A DNA stretch of 5,716 bases from Chloroflexota bacterium. Its GTDB lineage: Bacteria; Chloroflexota; Chloroflexia; JAMDCE01. Shown piece by piece: positions 1 to 5,681 of this stretch. Both the position numbers and the translations under genes were made by a program. The stretch covers positions 1 through 5,716 of the forward strand of contig JAMDCE010000266.1 of the NCBI GenBank assembly GCA_023489135.1. Reading direction: 5' to 3'. Within the stretch, counting starts at the first letter, position 1; each line of letters begins with the position of its first letter. The notes under the pieces were generated by a model. The model was not told where the DNA came from, ran no database searches, and saw only the letters and a program-made list of their open reading frames with translations.

Positions 1-2051
1 AAGCCCTTATTGTTGAAAAGGCAAAGGCAAGCGTCAACCACCTGCGGATCATAGAGAGTGCCGCGGTTTTGCGTGATTTCGTCCAGGGCCATGTGGATTC
101 CGAGAGCCGGCCGATAGGGTCGGTGCGAGGCCATGGCTTCGACGACGTCGGCCACGGCCAGGATTCGCGCCTCCAATAGGATGTCTTCTCCCCTCAGGCC
201 CAACGGATAGCCCGAGCCGTCCATCCTCTCGTGATGCTGGAGCACGTTCTGAGAGATGGGCCAGGGAAACTCTATCGTCCTCAGGATCTCGAAACCGATT
301 TGACTGTGGGTTCGAAGGAGATCGAGTTCTATCTTGCTTATTCGGCCGGGCTTACCCAGAACTTCGGCCGGCACGCGAATCTTGCCAATATCGTGAACCA
401 GAGCGGCAAGGCGAGCGGTGGTGATCTGGTCTGGCGGAAGATGCATCTCCCGCGCTATGGCGTCTACCAGCCGTCCCACTCGTTGTTGATGCCCGGCGGT
501 GTAAAGGTCCCTCATCTCGACGGTCAGCGCCATAGCCCGGATTGTCTCCTGCAGGGCTTTCTGCAGCTTCTCGAAGCTCTGTTTCAGGCCTTCTTCGGCC
601 TGCTTTCGCTGAGCCAGAGCGTACTCAAGCTGCCTGTTGGTCTTCGAAAGCTCCTGGGTTCGCTGCTCGACCCGCTCCTCCAGTTCATCGTGTGCCCTCT
701 GCAAAGCGCGCTCGGCCCGTTTACGCTCGGTGATGTCGCGGTAAACCAGCACGGCCAGGCTAACCACTCCCTCTTCGTTATAGACGGGCGTACCGGCCAC
801 GCTCAGGTAAGCAGTCTCGCCATCGGCCAGTCGCAGACATTCCTCTTCGTCGCGAACAACCTGGCCCGAGAGCACCCGTTCGATGATAGGTTTCTCCTCG
901 GCCGGCACGATAACCTTGGGTGACACCAGGCGATCGAGAAGCTCGCCCAACGTACCGGTCGCTTGCTTGATTTTGGGAATCCCCAACAGTGCCAGTCCTG
1001 AATTGCTGGCGTTCACCAGCCTGCCATCCTTGCCAACCACGAAGATCAGGTCGGCGCTGGTCTCGAAGACCGTCCGCAGCACCGCCCAGGGACCGAGGTC
1101 CACGCCCAGCACCCGGTAGCGAAATATCGCCAGGACGAACCCCAGAGGCAAGAGAGCCCAGGCAAGGATCCCCACCTCGGGCCGCAGGAGGTAAGTCTGA
1201 AAGCCGATGTAGGGAAGAAGACTACCGCCTAGGAACACCACCGCGGCGATGCCACTGCATACGGCAACCGGCCACAAGCGTCGGTGGTCCTTGGGAGCGC
1301 GAGTGAGGAAAGGCCACAACAAAGCAGCCACGCCGACAGCCAGGCATAGAACCATATAGGCATAGCTGACCGGTTCCAGTAAGGTGAAAACTGAGGATTC
1401 CCCTAGCACTCCGAAGCTGTACCACGCGGTAAGCGGCAACAGCGCCCAAAAGAGCAGTCGCATAGGGAGAATCCAGCGACGCACCGGGACAACGCAGAAG
1501 AAGTAGGCAAAGGCAGCCGTCGCTATCTTAGTGCTGAGCCAGTTGGAGTAAATAGCCCACGGCTGGCCCGTGGCAGCAGTAGTCGGAGTTGTGGTCAGCG
1601 CAACGGAGAGCATACCCGATAGGAAGAGGAAGCGATAAGCGGTGTGGCGATCCGACGACCTGAAGTAGACCAGGAGACCGGCCGCCAGGAACTCAAGACC
1701 TAAGGCAAAAAGTGCGATAGCGGTCCCCATCTCCCAGGTACGCCGGAATAACTCCACGCGACTTCCCTGGTTTGGCGAGGTGACTTCCAGAGCGACAAAG
1801 GCGTCGGAATCCTGGGGAAGGGGAAGGTAGCGTATTCTGTCACCCGGCCGCAGACCTTGGTCCCACCCGTAGCCCGTGGGTAGCACCCAGGTCAACTCTT
1901 GTGAGCCATCGCCCAGAACGATGGCACGTATTCCTAAACCAGGAGGACTATCCTGAGCCGCGAACGTAAGTCCCAGTTGCAGCAGCACGATGCTCGCCAG
2001 CAGCACGGCGGGCCAGAGCATACGCGCGCGCGCAACAGTTTGGGATCGCAT
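1..2051 (-). CDS. ComP-like membrane sensor with PAS and HD-GYP c-di-GMP phosphodiesterase domains (C-terminus cut by window edge)
   Basis: The reading frame is open from ATG 2051 to the left edge (683 codons, no stop), so the extreme C-terminus is missing. GGAG lies 9 bases before the ATG. Residues 9-32 form a signal-like or anchoring helix. Residues about 35-104 are an extracytoplasmic PDZ-like segment (GLRPGDRI), followed by about seven hydrophobic helices (108-300) ending in AIFRYRVLGVD, the junction typical of ComP-type sensors. A PAS domain spans 325-444 and ends in DITERK; a coiled coil covers about 445-500. The HD-GYP domain is intact: TAGH (H521), HDIGK (H553, D554, K557), H582, HHERMDGSGYP (606-616), AVAD (D635) and RPYR. 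The family hydrolyses c-di-GMP in the cytoplasm, so activity is expected. It is third in an operon, 48 bases after the prenyltransferase gene. I infer that it senses the product of the two upstream genes. Confidence is high for domains, moderate for the ligand. Confidence 0.93.
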   Translation of the reverse strand, partial: MRSQTVARARMLWPAVLLASIVLLQLGLTFAAQDSPPGLGIRAIVLGDGSQELTWVLPTGYGWDQGLRPGDRIRYLPLPQDSDAFVALEVTSPNQGSRVELFRRTWEMGTAIALFALGLEFLAAGLLVYFRSSDRHTAYRFLFLSGMLSVALTTTPTTAATGQPWAIYSNWLSTKIATAAFAYFFCVVPVRRWILPMRLLFWALLPLTAWYSFGVLGESSVFTLLEPVSYAYMVLCLAVGVAALLWPFLTRAPKDHRRLWPVAVCSGIAAVVFLGGSLLPYIGFQTYLLRPEVGILAWALLPLGFVLAIFRYRVLGVDLGPWAVLRTVFETSADLIFVVGKDGRLVNASNSGLALLGIPKIKQATGTLGELLDRLVSPKVIVPAEEKPIIERVLSGQVVRDEEECLRLADGETAYLSVAGTPVYNEEGVVSLAVLVYRDITERKRAERALQRAHDELEERVEQRTQELSKTNRQLEYALAQRKQAEEGLKQSFEKLQKALQETIRAMALTVEMRDLYTAGHQQRVGRLVDAIAREMHLPPDQITTARLAALVHDIGKIRVPAEVLGKPGRISKIELDLLRTHSQIGFEILRTIEFPWPISQNVLQHHERMDGSGYPLGLRGEDILLEARILAVADVVEAMASHRPYRPALGIHMALDEITQNRGTLYDPQVVDACLCLFNNKG

Positions 2052-2060
2052 CCACCCCAA

Positions 2061-2064
2061 CTCC
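2061..2064 (-). promoter_or_regulatory. Ribosome binding site of the HD-GYP sensor gene
   Basis: GGAG lies 9 bases before ATG 2051 on the minus strand. It favours this start over the in-frame ATG at residue 11, and the resulting N-terminus has positive residues (R2, R8, R10) just before the first hydrophobic helix. Confidence 0.65.
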
Positions 2065-2099
2065 ACCCCAAGTTCTCGCTTCCTCAGGCCAGCGCGGCC

Positions 2100-3059
2100 C
2101 TAACCCACCGGCGCAACCGCGGGCTGCTGCATCCGAGGCATAAGAAGGTCGAGGATTGTCTCGGTCTCGACCAAACACACCTCTCTCAACGCCGCGGTAG
2201 CAGCGCTCCGGCTCGTTTCCGCCATCATCCAGGTGTAGTAAAGAGCGCCACTGGCCAGCAACCCCTCCCTCAGCGTCTCCGCCTCGACCGAAGACGGAGG
2301 GTCGCTCGCGGCCAGATAGGCGCACAGGTGGTCCCGGAAGCTGCTAGCGGGGCCACGCAAGACGAAAATGAGCGGCAGGCTTACCACTCGCCGCTCCAGG
2401 TCGCGCTTGCCCTTTGCCCCGGGCCACAGGTCGTGCATATCATTGGCGAGCTGCGCCAGTCGGCCCAGATGCCGGCCAAACGACGCGAACCCCGCCACTC
2501 GTGACTCATCGGCGCCCGCCATGGCCGCACCGGCAGCGCACAAGGAGCAAATCAATCCCGCTGATTTCCGATCCACCAGGGCCATGTACTCTTCCGGACT
2601 GGAGGGCCGGCCTCCCAGGTCCTGATGCTGGCCATCCGCCGCTCCGACAATGCCGAACCACACCGAAGCGCTCACAGACTCCGGAGCCCGGCTCAACGAG
2701 CGACCGGCCAGCGCGAGCAGCGCGGAGGCGAGATTTACGGCTCGCGGGATGCCGACGGCGCCGGTGATGGGACTGTCATCCCCGTCTTCGATCTCATCGA
2801 ATAGATCCGAGGAAGCGCCCACAAGCTCCGCGGCGGTGGCCAACGGTAAAGCGCTCCGCCAATCCCCACCTGCGCCCCAGCAGGGCAGCAGCGGCAGGAG
2901 CGGCCATTTGGAACGGGGAGCCGGCGAGAGCACTTTACCATCGGATGACAGAGCCAGGTGAACGGCGCGCTCAAAATCCTCTGAAAGCCGCTGCCCTTGC
3001 AGCAGACTCAGCAGGTCCAGGCGCACGTCCGCGTAAAACTGCCCGGCTCTTTCGGCCAC
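2100..3059 (-). CDS. ComQ-like isoprenyl transferase (type I polyprenyl synthase fold)
   Basis: This 319-residue protein is of normal length for the trans-isoprenyl diphosphate synthase family. The first Asp-rich motif is in SSDLFDEIEDGDD (D85, D88, D92, D94, D95), a variant of DDxxD placed as in family members after a helix ending AAEL. GQHQDL (143-148) and the Lys of DRKSAGL (K165) match the conserved GQ..D and KT positions. The second metal motif is NDMHD (206-210), with Asn replacing the first Asp. GKRDLERRVVSLPL matches the usual K.TLP region. The family binds allylic diphosphates through Mg2+. A role in prenylating the Trp of the adjacent peptide, as ComQ does for ComX, is inferred from the neighbours. 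An ordinary terpenoid chain-elongation enzyme is the alternative. The start is GTG; the in-frame codon three upstream is the TAG stop of the peptide gene, so no longer start is possible. Six bases separate the genes, implying translational coupling. Confidence 0.88.
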   Translation of the reverse strand: MAERAGQFYADVRLDLLSLLQGQRLSEDFERAVHLALSSDGKVLSPAPRSKWPLLPLLPCWGAGGDWRSALPLATAAELVGASSDLFDEIEDGDDSPITGAVGIPRAVNLASALLALAGRSLSRAPESVSASVWFGIVGAADGQHQDLGGRPSSPEEYMALVDRKSAGLICSLCAAGAAMAGADESRVAGFASFGRHLGRLAQLANDMHDLWPGAKGKRDLERRVVSLPLIFVLRGPASSFRDHLCAYLAASDPPSSVEAETLREGLLASGALYYTWMMAETSRSAATAALREVCLVETETILDLLMPRMQQPAVAPVG

Positions 3060-3065
3060 TCTACG

Positions 3066-3266
3066 CTAGCTCCAGATCAACGGCTCCACTCTCATCTGAG
3101 TCCCGTTGGGAGTGCTGAGCGCGGCGACCAGCCCCGGGGAAACGCGCGTGGCAGCGTCGCGTTCGTGGGTCGACAGCCCGCTGTTGGCGATGGCCCTGGC
3201 CGGGCTCGAGAGGAATTCCGCCCGAAAGTCCGCGTCGGTGAAGAGCCGCCGTACGAAGTTCTCCAT
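3066..3266 (-). CDS. Putative ComX-like pheromone precursor, 66 aa, ending ...Ile-Trp-Ser
   Basis: This short gene has the strongest ribosome binding site in the window (AAGGGAGGAG, 7 bases before ATG) and is followed after 6 bases by the prenyltransferase gene. The product starts MENFVRRLFTDADF, continues FLSSPARAI and SGLSTHERDA, and ends MRVEPLIWS. There is no signal peptide, no transmembrane segment and no Cys. The single Trp is residue 65 of 66. Known ComX precursors are of similar size (about 55 residues in B. subtilis 168), lack a signal peptide and carry one Trp near the C-terminus that ComQ prenylates. The first 40 residues also have the F..xL..P..A..GL...E look of some RiPP leaders. 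I infer that the C-terminal 6-12 residues become a prenylated peptide signal. In known ComX the Trp is third or fourth from the end; here it is penultimate. Overlapping frames have no comparable SD. An unrelated RiPP precursor remains possible. Confidence 0.8.
   Translation of the reverse strand: MENFVRRLFTDADFRAEFLSSPARAIANSGLSTHERDAATRVSPGLVAALSTPNGTQMRVEPLIWS
3070..3073 (-). promoter_or_regulatory. Ribosome binding site of the prenyltransferase gene, inside the peptide gene
   Basis: GGAG on the minus strand lies 10 bases before the GTG at 3059. It is formed by the last bases of the Trp65 codon (TGG) and the first of the Ser66 codon (AGC). Ribosomes finishing the peptide would cover this site, which suits coupled translation. 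Confidence 0.55.
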
Positions 3267-3273
3267 GTGTCCA

Positions 3274-3283
3274 CTCCTCCCTT
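3274..3283 (-). promoter_or_regulatory. Strong ribosome binding site of the peptide gene
   Basis: The minus strand reads AAGGGAGGAG, 7 bases before the ATG at 3266. The near-perfect anti-SD match supports the 66-residue frame over the two longer overlapping frames on the same strand and suggests high translation of the precursor. Confidence 0.85.
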
Positions 3284-3292
3284 AGTATTGGT

Positions 3293-3311
3293 ATGGAACA
3301 TCCTGTTCCAT
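3293..3311. promoter_or_regulatory. Perfect inverted repeat, probable operator or leader hairpin
   Basis: ATGGAACA-TCC-TGTTCCAT is an 8-bp perfect inverted repeat with a 3-base spacer. It lies between the candidate -10 and the SD of the peptide gene, about 10 bases upstream of the SD, a usual place for a repressor site. It is not followed by a T-run, so it is not a terminator. It has GAAC/GTTC half-sites like LexA boxes but with a 5-base rather than 4-base spacing, so I do not assign a regulator. Confidence 0.5.
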
Positions 3312-3331
3312 CCGCCTTTATGGCATGCTCT

Positions 3332-3359
3332 ATTATGCACATTGCAGGCAGTTTTGCAA
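3332..3359 (-). promoter_or_regulatory. Candidate sigma-70-type promoter of the peptide-prenyltransferase-sensor operon
   Basis: On the minus strand TTGCAA (3359-3354, 4 of 6 to consensus) and CATAAT (3337-3332, 5 of 6) are 16 bases apart, in an AT-richer stretch 66 bases upstream of the peptide ATG. The leader it would give contains the inverted repeat at 3293-3311. A second possible -10, TATAAT at 3415-3410, has only a weak -35 (TTGGAG at 15 bases). Neither is proven. Confidence 0.35.
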
Positions 3360-3379
3360 GACCCTAAGTGCCGCAAGCT

Positions 3380-3395
3380 ATTGAAGTTTTGAAGT
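3380..3395 (-). repeat. Tandem 8-mer upstream of the operon promoter
   Basis: On the minus strand ACTTCAAA is followed directly by ACTTCAAT, two copies with one mismatch. They sit about 20 bases upstream of the candidate -35. Direct half-sites in such a place can bind an activator, but the repeat is short and may be chance. Confidence 0.3.
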
Positions 3396-3422
3396 AAGTC
3401 TTCCATATCATTATATTCCTTT

Positions 3423-3608
3423 GCCGACTTCTCCAACTCTTCAACGGCCCTCTACGTGGAATGTTGCTGGAACGGCGGCCCGGTAAGCGTAGCAGACTCC
3501 AATTTCACCAACAACTATACGACGCTGGGCGGATACGCCGGGTGGGTTATGAACGTCGATAGGAGCGTGTTTGAAAACAACACCTACGCGGTTACCGGCA
3601 TAAGTTGA
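3423..3608 (+). pseudogene. 3' remnant of a parallel beta-helix repeat protein
   Basis: The plus-strand frame from 3393 to the TGA at 3606-3608 has no ATG and no SD. It encodes three similar coils starting near 3426 (DFSNSSTALYVE), 3495 (DSNFTNNYTTLGG) and 3561 (RSVFENNTYAVTG), 23 and 22 residues apart. That spacing and the Asn-rich F.NN pattern are typical of right-handed parallel beta-helix or polymorphic outer-membrane-type repeats found in secreted surface proteins and polysaccharide lyases. With only about 60 residues and no start it is most likely a decayed or recombined gene end. Chance resemblance cannot be excluded. The region upstream overlaps the divergent operon promoter, so an intact gene cannot lie there. 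Confidence 0.5.
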
Positions 3609-3680
3609 CCAAAACTTAACACTTCCATAATAGCTCGTTAATGACCTTTGGCTATAATACCCCCGACAGATAACAAGCGC

Positions 3681-3737
3681 GAAGATGTCACGGGGCGCTC
3701 GGGGTTGGGCGGGACGTTTTCAGGGTGGGACATCTTC
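3681..3737. other. G-quadruplex-type run enclosed by a 9-bp inverted repeat, in a 216-base gap without a gene
   Basis: GAAGATGTC (3681-3689) and GACATCTTC (3729-3737) are perfect reverse complements. Between them the plus strand has six G-tracts: GGGG 3692, GGGG 3701, GGG 3707, GGG 3711, GGG 3723 and GGG 3727 (the last overlaps the right arm by one base). The first four have loops of 5, 2 and 1 bases and fit the usual G3N1-7 quadruplex pattern. I see no known riboswitch consensus. No supported coding frame occupies 3609-3824. Confidence 0.5.
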
Positions 3738-3747
3738 CCTCATATTA

Positions 3748-3786
3748 GAGAGAGCCGACCGGAAGCAGGGACCGGTCGGCTCTCTC
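3748..3786 (-). terminator. Strong hairpin downstream of the histidine kinase gene
   Basis: A perfect 15-bp stem runs from GAGAGAGCCGACCGG (3748-3762) to its complement at 3772-3786, with a 9-base loop. It begins 38 bases after the kinase stop. On the minus strand the tail is TAATATGAGG, without a true U-run, so termination may be only partly intrinsic. The hairpin is symmetrical and could also act on plus-strand transcripts, where the tail is GCTTTC. Confidence 0.7.
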
Positions 3787-3824
3787 GCTTTCAGGTAGGA
3801 GACAGCGCGACTAGCAAGGATATC

Positions 3825-5681
3825 CTAGCTAATGGGCAGGGTGAAGCGGAAGGTGCTGCCTTTGCCCACTGCGCTCTCTACCCAGATGCGTCCGCCGTGC
3901 GCTTCGACGAACATCCTGCTTATGTAGAGCCCCAGACCCACACCCCCGGCCTTCCGACCCGCCCTAGGCTCATAGAAGCGCTCGAAGATGTGCGAGATGT
4001 CCTCCGGCGCAATTCCTATCCCGCGATCGGACACAGAGACCATTATCTCATAGTCTAACCTTTGCGCTTTAACCAGCACCTCGGTCTCCGGAGGAGCGTA
4101 CTTCAGCGCGTTGCTTAGCAGATTCATAAGAATGCGCTCCAGGCGGTTGGGATCGGCCGGGATAAGGGGCAGGTCCCCCGGAATCTCTACCCTGACTCGC
4201 CCGGCCTCCATCATGGCGCCGGCCCGCTCCAGCAGCTCGGCCACAAAGCACCTCACGTCCACCGGCGCCTTTTCCAGTTTTAGCTGCCCGGTCTCGAAGC
4301 GGACCGAATCCACCATATCCTGTATTATCGCGTTCATTCGCTGAGCCCCCGTGATAACGGCCTCCGCGCTCTTGCGCACAGCGACGGTCTCTCCAAGTCG
4401 CACGATAATCTGAGCGTGGCCCATGATGATGGAGAGAGGGTTTCGCAGGTCGTGGGAGACGGCCCGGATCATATCCTCGCGCTGCTCCTGTAACTTCCTC
4501 AGATCTTCTGCCCGTCGCTCTGTCTCTTCAGCATGCTCTCTTGATCGGATGGTGGAGACGGCGAGCTGTTCGTTGATCTGTCGTATCCGCTGCTCACGAG
4601 TTTGAATTTCCTCTGACATTTCGCTGAAGGCCTCGGCCAATCGCTCCAGCTCGATTGGGCCGGCTGCCTTCGCACTGGGGGTTGGCTCTTGGTGGGCAAG
4701 GCCCAGCGCCCGCTTCTGAAGATACTCGATGGGGGCGGTAATGCTGTGGCTTAGCCTCATCGCCACCAAGAAGGCCAAAGTCGCGATGAACAGAAGAGTA
4801 CCGATCTCGGCAAGAAGGTCTTGCATCACCGGGGCCATCGCCCGTGACACGGGGATGCTGGCCGAAGCCACCCAGCCGATGGAACGAATGGGAACAAACC
4901 CGGCCATTCTTTCGCGCCCATCCATACTCGAAACAAAAGTTCCGGTTACCTCCTCTCCGGCCAGCGCTTTGCGGATCAAGGGCTGCGTGGGGAGCAGGTT
5001 TCGTTGTTCCCACGAGCGTTCCACCTCGGGAGAGCGATATACCAGGAAGCCTCTTTCATCAATGATGGCCACGGCCGCGTCCCCGCCTCGCTCGATGGGG
5101 ATCTCCAGCACACCCAGGCGCTGAGCGTCCACGAGCGCCACGATGACGCCCTGCCAGGAACCTTCGGCACTGCGCACGGCCTGCGCTATGGCGAAGACGG
5201 GCATGCCTCCGTCTGGGGCCGGGAAGAGATTGCTGACGGCTGTCTGTCGTCCTTGAGCGATCTCCTGAAAATAATCACTCTCTTGGGCATCGAGTCCAAT
5301 CGCCCTGGCATTGCTGGAGGCTACGATCCGGCCCCGCGTGTCCAACCAGTCGAACTCACCAACAGCAAGGTACATGCCCGCGGCGGCGGCCAGATAATGG
5401 GGAATCTGATCGACCGGAAGGTTTTCGATGGTGATGCTCATAGCCAGCGCCCGCTCGACGCGGGTCACATCCCTCACGTAGCCTTCCACAGCCACGCCTG
5501 CCGATCGAGCCACTTCGAGATTGGCCTGAAATTCCTGTGCTCGCCGCACCTCGAACCGTCGCCAGTAGAGACCGGCCTGTGCCAGCAGGATGGGGACGAG
5601 GACGACGAGCACCAGCAGAATCATTGTGCCCCTTACGCTTCGAGGGAGGAGCCGTCTGATTCTACTCAGGAGCATTTCCAC
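3825..5681 (-). CDS. dCache-HAMP sensor histidine kinase
   Basis: This 618-residue inner-membrane two-component kinase has a complete domain set. TM1 covers about 19-39; an extracytoplasmic double Cache (dCache_1-like) sensor covers about 41-285, with the repeated features DWLDTRGRIVASS and AIIDERGFLVYRS. TM2 covers about 290-310, followed by HAMP and a long coiled coil to about 405. The HisKA phospho-acceptor is H410 in AVSHDLRNP. The HATPase motifs are N524 (N box, MNLLSNALKYAP), D552 (DRGIGI), the F box IFERFYEP and GVGLGL (580-585). dCache domains usually bind small molecules such as amino acids or carboxylates; the ligand here is unknown. No receiver domain is fused and no response regulator is in the window. 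The annotated start is GTG at 5681; ATG at residue 3 is an alternative, neither has a clear SD, and the frame stays open to the right edge, so the true start may lie outside. It has its own terminator, so it is probably not part of the peptide operon. Confidence 0.93.
   Translation of the reverse strand: MEMLLSRIRRLLPRSVRGTMILLVLVVLVPILLAQAGLYWRRFEVRRAQEFQANLEVARSAGVAVEGYVRDVTRVERALAMSITIENLPVDQIPHYLAAAAGMYLAVGEFDWLDTRGRIVASSNARAIGLDAQESDYFQEIAQGRQTAVSNLFPAPDGGMPVFAIAQAVRSAEGSWQGVIVALVDAQRLGVLEIPIERGGDAAVAIIDERGFLVYRSPEVERSWEQRNLLPTQPLIRKALAGEEVTGTFVSSMDGRERMAGFVPIRSIGWVASASIPVSRAMAPVMQDLLAEIGTLLFIATLAFLVAMRLSHSITAPIEYLQKRALGLAHQEPTPSAKAAGPIELERLAEAFSEMSEEIQTREQRIRQINEQLAVSTIRSREHAEETERRAEDLRKLQEQREDMIRAVSHDLRNPLSIIMGHAQIIVRLGETVAVRKSAEAVITGAQRMNAIIQDMVDSVRFETGQLKLEKAPVDVRCFVAELLERAGAMMEAGRVRVEIPGDLPLIPADPNRLERILMNLLSNALKYAPPETEVLVKAQRLDYEIMVSVSDRGIGIAPEDISHIFERFYEPRAGRKAGGVGLGLYISRMFVEAHGGRIWVESAVGKGSTFRFTLPIS

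Follow-up and report, generated by a model that had tools for sequence, protein, structure and literature searches.

A compact three-gene locus of a Chloroflexota bacterium probably encodes a prenylated peptide pheromone and a receptor that switches cyclic di-GMP (c-di-GMP) hydrolysis directly, without a kinase. The locus lies on the 5,716-nucleotide contig JAMDCE010000266.1 (assembly GCA_023489135.1), the whole of which is here called the window. It comprises a precursor peptide, X (66 amino acids (aa), 3066..3266), recognised as an open reading frame (ORF) with leader-model matches; a predicted tryptophan (Trp) prenyltransferase of the trans-isoprenyl diphosphate synthase (trans-IDS) fold, Q (319 aa, 2100..3059), assigned from its ORF, Pfam match, structural model, motifs and tree position; and a membrane receptor with PAS and HD-GYP domains, R (3..2066), assigned from its ORF, Pfam matches and a database copy. 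In the ORF listing all three genes are adjacent and co-directional on the minus strand, with 6 nt between X and Q and ~33 nt between Q and R, in keeping with the tight arrangement noted in a preliminary description, which had proposed from the sequence a quorum-sensing operon like ComX–ComQ–ComP with a c-di-GMP phosphodiesterase as its output. R starts with GTG at 2066 or, alternatively, with ATG at 2051; its stop codon lies just beyond the window edge, and its coding part is complete because an identical database protein (P0007, 683 aa) ends at the same residue.

The enzyme had been described as having a polyprenyl-synthase fold, and this is borne out by a match to PF00348 (E 2.7e-14) and an AlphaFold2 model (mean pLDDT 90.9) whose isoprenoid-synthase fold finds matches in the PDB. 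At rank 26 among these fold matches stands Ord1, a Trp farnesyltransferase described as acting on free Trp (PMC13290415; this and all papers below are represented by excerpts). Alignment and motif checks locate the first Asp-rich motif (FARM), DEIED, at 2784..2798 and a pseudo second Asp-rich motif (pseudo-SARM), NDMHD, at 2430..2444, both on the minus strand. ComQ needs NDxxx or GDxxx at the latter position, and an Asn-to-Asp exchange there cuts its activity drastically (PMC5331326). Q thus unites the features by which ComQ is recognised, namely PF00348, a FARM and an NDxxx/GDxxx pseudo-SARM, and lacks the GKxxR and RRG pair typical of chain-elongating trans-IDS. Loss of these isopentenyl diphosphate-binding motifs is general among the Q sequences compared: none of 34 has RRG, and none of the 33 that extend over the site has GKxxR (L036 is truncated). 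Both are present in 14 of 14 ordinary synthases, which are those of 36 loci that fit an RRG-containing pattern, so that their RRG is a product of selection while their GKxxR is not. The preliminary description had itself named grouping with chain-length synthases as an outcome that would count against it; Q instead forms a clade apart from the 14 ordinary enzymes at 99 in the Shimodaira–Hasegawa-like approximate likelihood ratio test (SH-aLRT), though the tree is a quick one and has a few long branches. The ND at the SARM is not universal in Q (DD occurs in L001, L002, L033, L090-L098 and L109-L112), and three ordinary synthases have it too. A conserved Gln before the SARM (Q203) was set aside as a discriminator: it is invariant in the Q profile A3 but is also found in ordinary synthases. 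The nearest relatives of Q are only three database proteins (P0002-P0004, 54-61%), of which P0004 is labelled Dehalococcoidia.

The 66-aa peptide was correctly recognised (ORF 3266-3066), but its Trp is not at the very C-terminus as first claimed: X ends in LIWS, so that Trp65 is penultimate and Ser last. X has the size and Trp placement of a ComX-type precursor, which has 52-73 aa and a Trp near its C-terminus. The Trp65 codon (3072..3074, minus strand) is the predicted prenylation site, judging from the sequence and from the Trp near the C-terminus of X at other loci. Residues 1-39 (3150..3266, minus strand) form an NHLP-like leader, as delimited by the stretch matching TIGR04509 (E 8.5e-8, 32.1 bits, cut-off 34) and NF038399 (E 3.1e-7, 30.4 bits, cut-off 40), both below the curated thresholds. 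When the leader models were run on 10 of the 29 X peptides from other loci, those of L073 and L090 passed the NF038399 cut-off, those of L034, L038, L069, L072 and L091 matched it below the cut-off, that of L032 weakly matched a TOMM leader model (E 0.0098), and those of L037 and L111 matched none. PF05952 (ComX) was absent from the Pfam matches of X at E <= 1, a weak test in which the B. subtilis control also failed the cut-off. Comparison with ComX and leader families of ribosomally synthesised and post-translationally modified peptides (RiPPs), as had been suggested, yields an NHLP-like resemblance under the cut-offs and, in that weak test, no ComX match. Tandem core repeats (EGPFPGWQGMELA, GPNGPWGWQF, GPNGPWDWQF) occur in the X of L001 (1471-2184), L091, L092 and L095, upstream of Q, giving each several Trp cores.

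R runs in order from a predicted first transmembrane helix through a PDZ-like domain, seven helices and a PAS domain to HD-GYP. The last two are clear from Pfam: PAS_4 (PF08448, E 1.7e-12) covers 717..1067 and HD_5 (PF13487, E 7.5e-36) covers 39..524, both on the minus strand, the latter with the motifs HDIGK and HHERMDGSGYP, conforming to HDxGK and HHExxDGxGYP. The Pfam search found no kinase domain in R; the PF07730 and PF02518 of ComP are lacking, with HD-GYP in their place. The AlphaFold2 model (pLDDT 88.5) has one N-terminal helix, a beta domain at residues 41-102 counted from the Met at 2051 (1746..1931, minus strand) and seven putative membrane helices, with an AIFRYR linker at their end (1119..1730, minus strand), with which hydropathy broadly agrees. 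The receptor as first sketched thus holds for its seven or so helices and its HD-GYP domain, although the sketch omitted the PAS domain, and the PDZ-like domain comes from the model, being insignificant by sequence (PDZ_6, E 0.2); it is clear in the receptors of some relatives (E 8.7e-6 in L072 and 9.7e-7 in L088). Against the PDB, the sensor model found nothing at E <= 0.001, with only a weak resemblance to rhodopsin and G-protein-coupled receptors.

The same arrangement recurs elsewhere in the phylum, which makes the layout of the window more than chance. The survey covers 36 Q loci in Chloroflexota, the window and 35 others. Judged by neighbourhood, Q was obtained from 8 of 400, 12 of 393, 3 of 29, 10 of 298 and 2 of 158 genomes, and from 4 of 363 by way of the sensor, in draws that overlap. 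Neighbourhoods decided because at E 1e-45 a first Q profile (A2) did not distinguish Q from ordinary synthases. A later profile (A3) matched 139 of 393 genomes, with Q represented by 11 at >=285 bits and a partial match of 220.6 bits (G188); matches at <=228 bits were mostly not inspected singly, and since genuine loci of other classes go down to ~226 bits, bit score alone does not divide Q from the rest. Further Q genes may have been overlooked, as the divergent L109-L112 illustrate. A plasmid search returned just two prenyl synthases, both from Streptomyces. In 33 of the 36 loci Q is immediately followed by a receptor belonging to a single sensor family, the exceptions being L092, where the contig ends, and L140 and L141, which have no receptor directly behind Q. 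Behind Q, the output is a kinase in 28 loci (26 by Pfam, L138 and L139 by reading) and HD-GYP without a kinase in four, the window, L032, L036 and L072, the last three lacking HATPase; contigs ending inside the receptor (L002) or before it (L092) leave two unassigned. The proposed survey for triplets of peptide, prenyl synthase and HD-GYP thus finds such outputs at four of 36 loci, and the window system belongs to a wider X-Q-P family of Chloroflexota whose receptors are, as a rule, kinases. Two variants of the enzyme gene deserve mention: in L140 (1562-2842) and L141 (a minus-strand Q ORF) the X leader and a Trp segment are fused in frame to Q (426 and 461 aa), and in L074 (G188) Q is seemingly interrupted, a 214-aa ORF being followed by ~1 kb to the receptor, with X and a hybrid kinase kept.

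The preliminary description had also staked its case on the Trp being kept in homologous small ORFs, which it is. Of the first 32 loci, 30 have a readable X; in L036 and L093 it lies off the contig. All 30 picked peptides have a Trp within their last 30 residues; it is penultimate in 17 and terminal in L072, counts from which the masked L001 is excluded. Ten of the 30 (L032, L070-L074, L109-L112) came from Trp-filtered ORF lists and 20 from unfiltered ones. Four of the Q loci sit in one genome (G1023), and all four also show the Trp. Of 14 ordinary loci, none has a small ORF close to the start with a Trp among its last 14 residues, against 28 of 30 for picked X, which was chosen by a different rule. 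The fairer control is a rule blind to Trp, which takes the small same-strand upstream ORF whose stop lies nearest to the enzyme start and which found an ORF at 29 of 31 Q loci and 10 of 14 ordinary prenyl-synthase loci. Under this rule a Trp falls within the last 14 residues at 21 of 29 Q loci and one of 10 ordinary ones, within the last 30 at 24 of 29 and two of 10, and in the penultimate position at 12 of 29 and none of 10.

The sensor of R is homologous to the sensors of kinases adjoining X-Q and of other HD-GYP receptors, so that the phosphodiesterase-type output without kinase, a PAS-HD-GYP module on a sensor shared with X-Q-linked kinases, was rightly read. Across 30 loci, tree distances of Q and sensor correlate (Spearman 0.746, with 0 of 2000 permutations as high). 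The window's sensor type matches five of 363 genomes, and in four of these (L109-L112) X-Q directly precedes the sensor gene, in the order X, divergent Q, kinase and response regulator. In the protein database the same type is joined to PAS-GGDEF in P0008 and P0011 and to a kinase in P0009 and P0010; the first two are close sensor relatives in which this sensor is coupled to an enzyme of opposite c-di-GMP activity. On the sensor tree, a quick one with L074 left out and L002 unlabelled, the output has changed a minimum of six times. Between the two types of HD-GYP receptor, the sensor profiles can be aligned (hhalign probability 97.4%, E 9.2e-12), whereas the window's HD-GYP domain groups at 100/100 with that of L108 and with those of two HD-GYP proteins built differently, away from L032, L036 and L072, in a tree whose background domains were obtained from 10 of 15 loci. 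Given homologous sensors with separately grouping output domains, the acquisition of HD-GYP probably happened two or more times. A common origin for all four HD-GYP outputs was rejected, since the window's domain clusters away from those of the other three loci.

In four relatives tested for the wider c-di-GMP network, GGDEF genes are present throughout (one in G272, two in G196, one in G428 and five in G414) and EAL is found in none. In G428 the X-Q receptor is the sole PF13487 candidate, beside one GGDEF protein and no EAL match, so that its network is apparently minimal, the completeness of this genome not being given. At L036, some 1 kb past the HD-GYP receptor and on the other strand, there is a GGDEF match (G196:C59:4186-4659).

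Among known systems, the window is close in build to PalP-PalX-PalQ of Paenibacillus alvei, in which PalQ prenylates the Trp of the NHLP-type PalX and the kinase gene palP adjoins (PMC10853753). Shared, as far as the excerpts go, are a Trp near or at the C-terminus of the precursor, an isoprenoid-synthase-fold enzyme and a sensor gene in a three-gene cluster; the leader of X resembles the NHLP type of PalX at scores under the cut-offs, and the fold and motif loss of Q accord with a Trp-prenylating enzyme like PalQ. Apart from the host, the two differ in that PalP carries a histidine kinase annotation, whereas the window receptor ends in HD-GYP, and in that PalX ends in its conserved Trp, past which extensions abolish PalQ activity (PMC10853753, PMC13290415), whereas X has a Ser after it. 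The ComQ of RO-E-2 accepts a Trp at positions two to four counted from the C-terminus (PMC4008528/PMC5331326). With the ComQXPA system of Bacillus, insofar as the same excerpts describe it, the locus shares the short Trp peptide, a ComQ-like enzyme with FARM and NDxxx and a multi-helix membrane receptor; it differs in gene order (X-Q-R rather than Q-X-P-A), in its NHLP-like leader without a PF05952 match and in a receptor without HisKA_3 or HATPase. The comparison with ComX-ComQ-ComP is largely upheld as a signalling logic, but strict membership of X in ComX is not, given its PalX-like leader and the different gene order. The 28 Chloroflexota kinase loci likewise combine X and Q with a homologous sensor; they differ in an output that is a histidine or hybrid kinase, often with a response-regulator gene nearby. 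Fatty-acid quorum signals of the diffusible signal factor family (DSF and BDSF) likewise end in c-di-GMP hydrolysis, through RpfC-RpfG, in which the response regulator RpfG is a protein of its own downstream of a kinase, and through the cytosolic RpfR. In contrast, the window pairs a ribosomal peptide with a membrane receptor whose own chain includes HD-GYP. In the open-licence literature, outside which most subscription papers and all preprints fall, no Chloroflexota ComQXP system and no prenylated-peptide or peptide-pheromone receptor with HD-GYP was found, so that within this scope the statement that no such system had been described stands. The available part of a 2014 census records no ComQXPA outside Firmicutes (PMC4008528), that of PMC8895600 mentions for Chloroflexi only a kinase-regulator pair, and the part seen of PMC12352652 contains both ComQ and Chloroflexota but is unrelated.

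The layout, the domains, the motif loss in Q, the recurrence of X-Q-P, Trp conservation, sensor homology, correlated trees and HD-GYP replacement in four loci are directly supported. On the pheromone reading, Q would prenylate X on Trp65, enzymes encoded elsewhere would cut off the leader and export the core, and the core peptide would bind the PDZ-7TM sensor of R. The signal would then run via PAS to HD-GYP and alter the c-di-GMP level; hydrolysis by R and the sign of the switch are predictions from its domains. In this way the bacterium would gauge the density of surrounding cells, bypassing the customary relay through a kinase. It is unlikely, though worth keeping in mind, that X and Q instead yield a prenylated RiPP secreted mainly for a different purpose, as an antimicrobial or surfactant, and that R monitors this product or the envelope just to regulate the producer. 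NHLP-type leaders do belong to RiPP precursors, and the tandem multi-core X of L001, L091, L092 and L095 resemble high-yield precursors; yet a receptor of the sensor family stands right behind Q at nearly every locus and its tree correlates with that of Q, and no transporter or immunity gene was noticed in the stretches inspected, whose flanks were not systematically annotated. It is very improbable that Q elongates chains or forms terpenes and that its isoprenoid product serves as the ligand, X being an unrelated small protein. Q shares fold and Pfam family with prenyl diphosphate synthases, but RRG and GKxxR are lost wherever the sites are covered, the window's pseudo-SARM reads ND, Q forms a separate clade, and a Trp peptide lies just upstream at every locus with a readable X.

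Several observations weigh against the pheromone reading. X scores under both curated NHLP cut-offs; a protein-database search with it returned only X itself, so short a query weakening the search; and no second X is known from the window's own Q clade, Trp conservation being drawn from more distant loci. The Trp-blind rule picked an ORF other than X at 10 of 29 loci, the window included, and PilZ occurs in only one of the four relatives tested (G196). The nearest neighbours of the window's Q and of its sensor differ between the two trees. L108 (4841-7192) encodes a sister receptor with PAS-PAS-HD-GYP and no adjoining X-Q; it may be an orphan or eavesdropping receptor. Since, in addition, G414 shows no Q match at E <= 1e-50, the window's sensor type may have another ligand. 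These tree neighbours and L108 are also what speaks for the view that the sensor has drifted to a different ligand, so that R is a mere neighbour and X-Q serves a different receptor. We give this little credence: R shares its strand with Q and begins ~33 nt after it, the sensor directly follows X-Q in four of the five genomes found by the sensor, and adjacency of Q and an HD-GYP receptor is repeated in L032, L036 and L072 with other sensors of the family.

Upstream of X lie a strong ribosome-binding site, GGGAGGAG, ending 7 nt before its ATG (3274..3281, minus strand, by sequence), and a promoter-like -35/-10 pair, TTGCAA-16-CATAAT (3332..3359, minus strand), a consensus match that carries no evidence of function; a consensus scan of 2990-3900 gave three matches against a shuffle mean of 0.6. 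A histidine kinase gene with dCache, HAMP, HisKA and HATPase domains occupies 3825-5681 on the same strand, 558 nt upstream of X. It is apparently separate, and as a partner of X-Q it was set aside, because it has its own dCache/HAMP sensor, lies at that distance and had no counterpart noticed elsewhere. Behind this gene, at 3748-3786, is a GC-rich long inverted repeat, agagagccgacc...ggtcggctctct, which a terminator scan did not list, and a 50-aa plus-strand ORF (3456-3608) has Asn/Gly-rich repeats that by eye resemble a fragment of a beta-helix protein.

The pheromone receptors of Chloroflexota may be modular, a PDZ-7TM sensor being joined to a kinase, to HD-GYP or to GGDEF, such that a pheromone sets c-di-GMP in one protein step at the window and three further loci and density alone governs c-di-GMP removal in G428; we regard this wider proposal as evenly poised. 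X and Q offer a concrete pair for mass spectrometry, and with its multi-core and X-Q-fused precursors the family also supplies candidate Trp prenyltransferases. With one GGDEF and one HD-GYP protein, G428 is a setting in which a link between density and c-di-GMP would be testable. If the reading is true, prenylated-peptide quorum sensing would extend from Bacillota into Chloroflexota, where domain swaps, on two or more separate occasions, would have connected a peptide pheromone directly with c-di-GMP turnover, with neither kinase nor response regulator in between.

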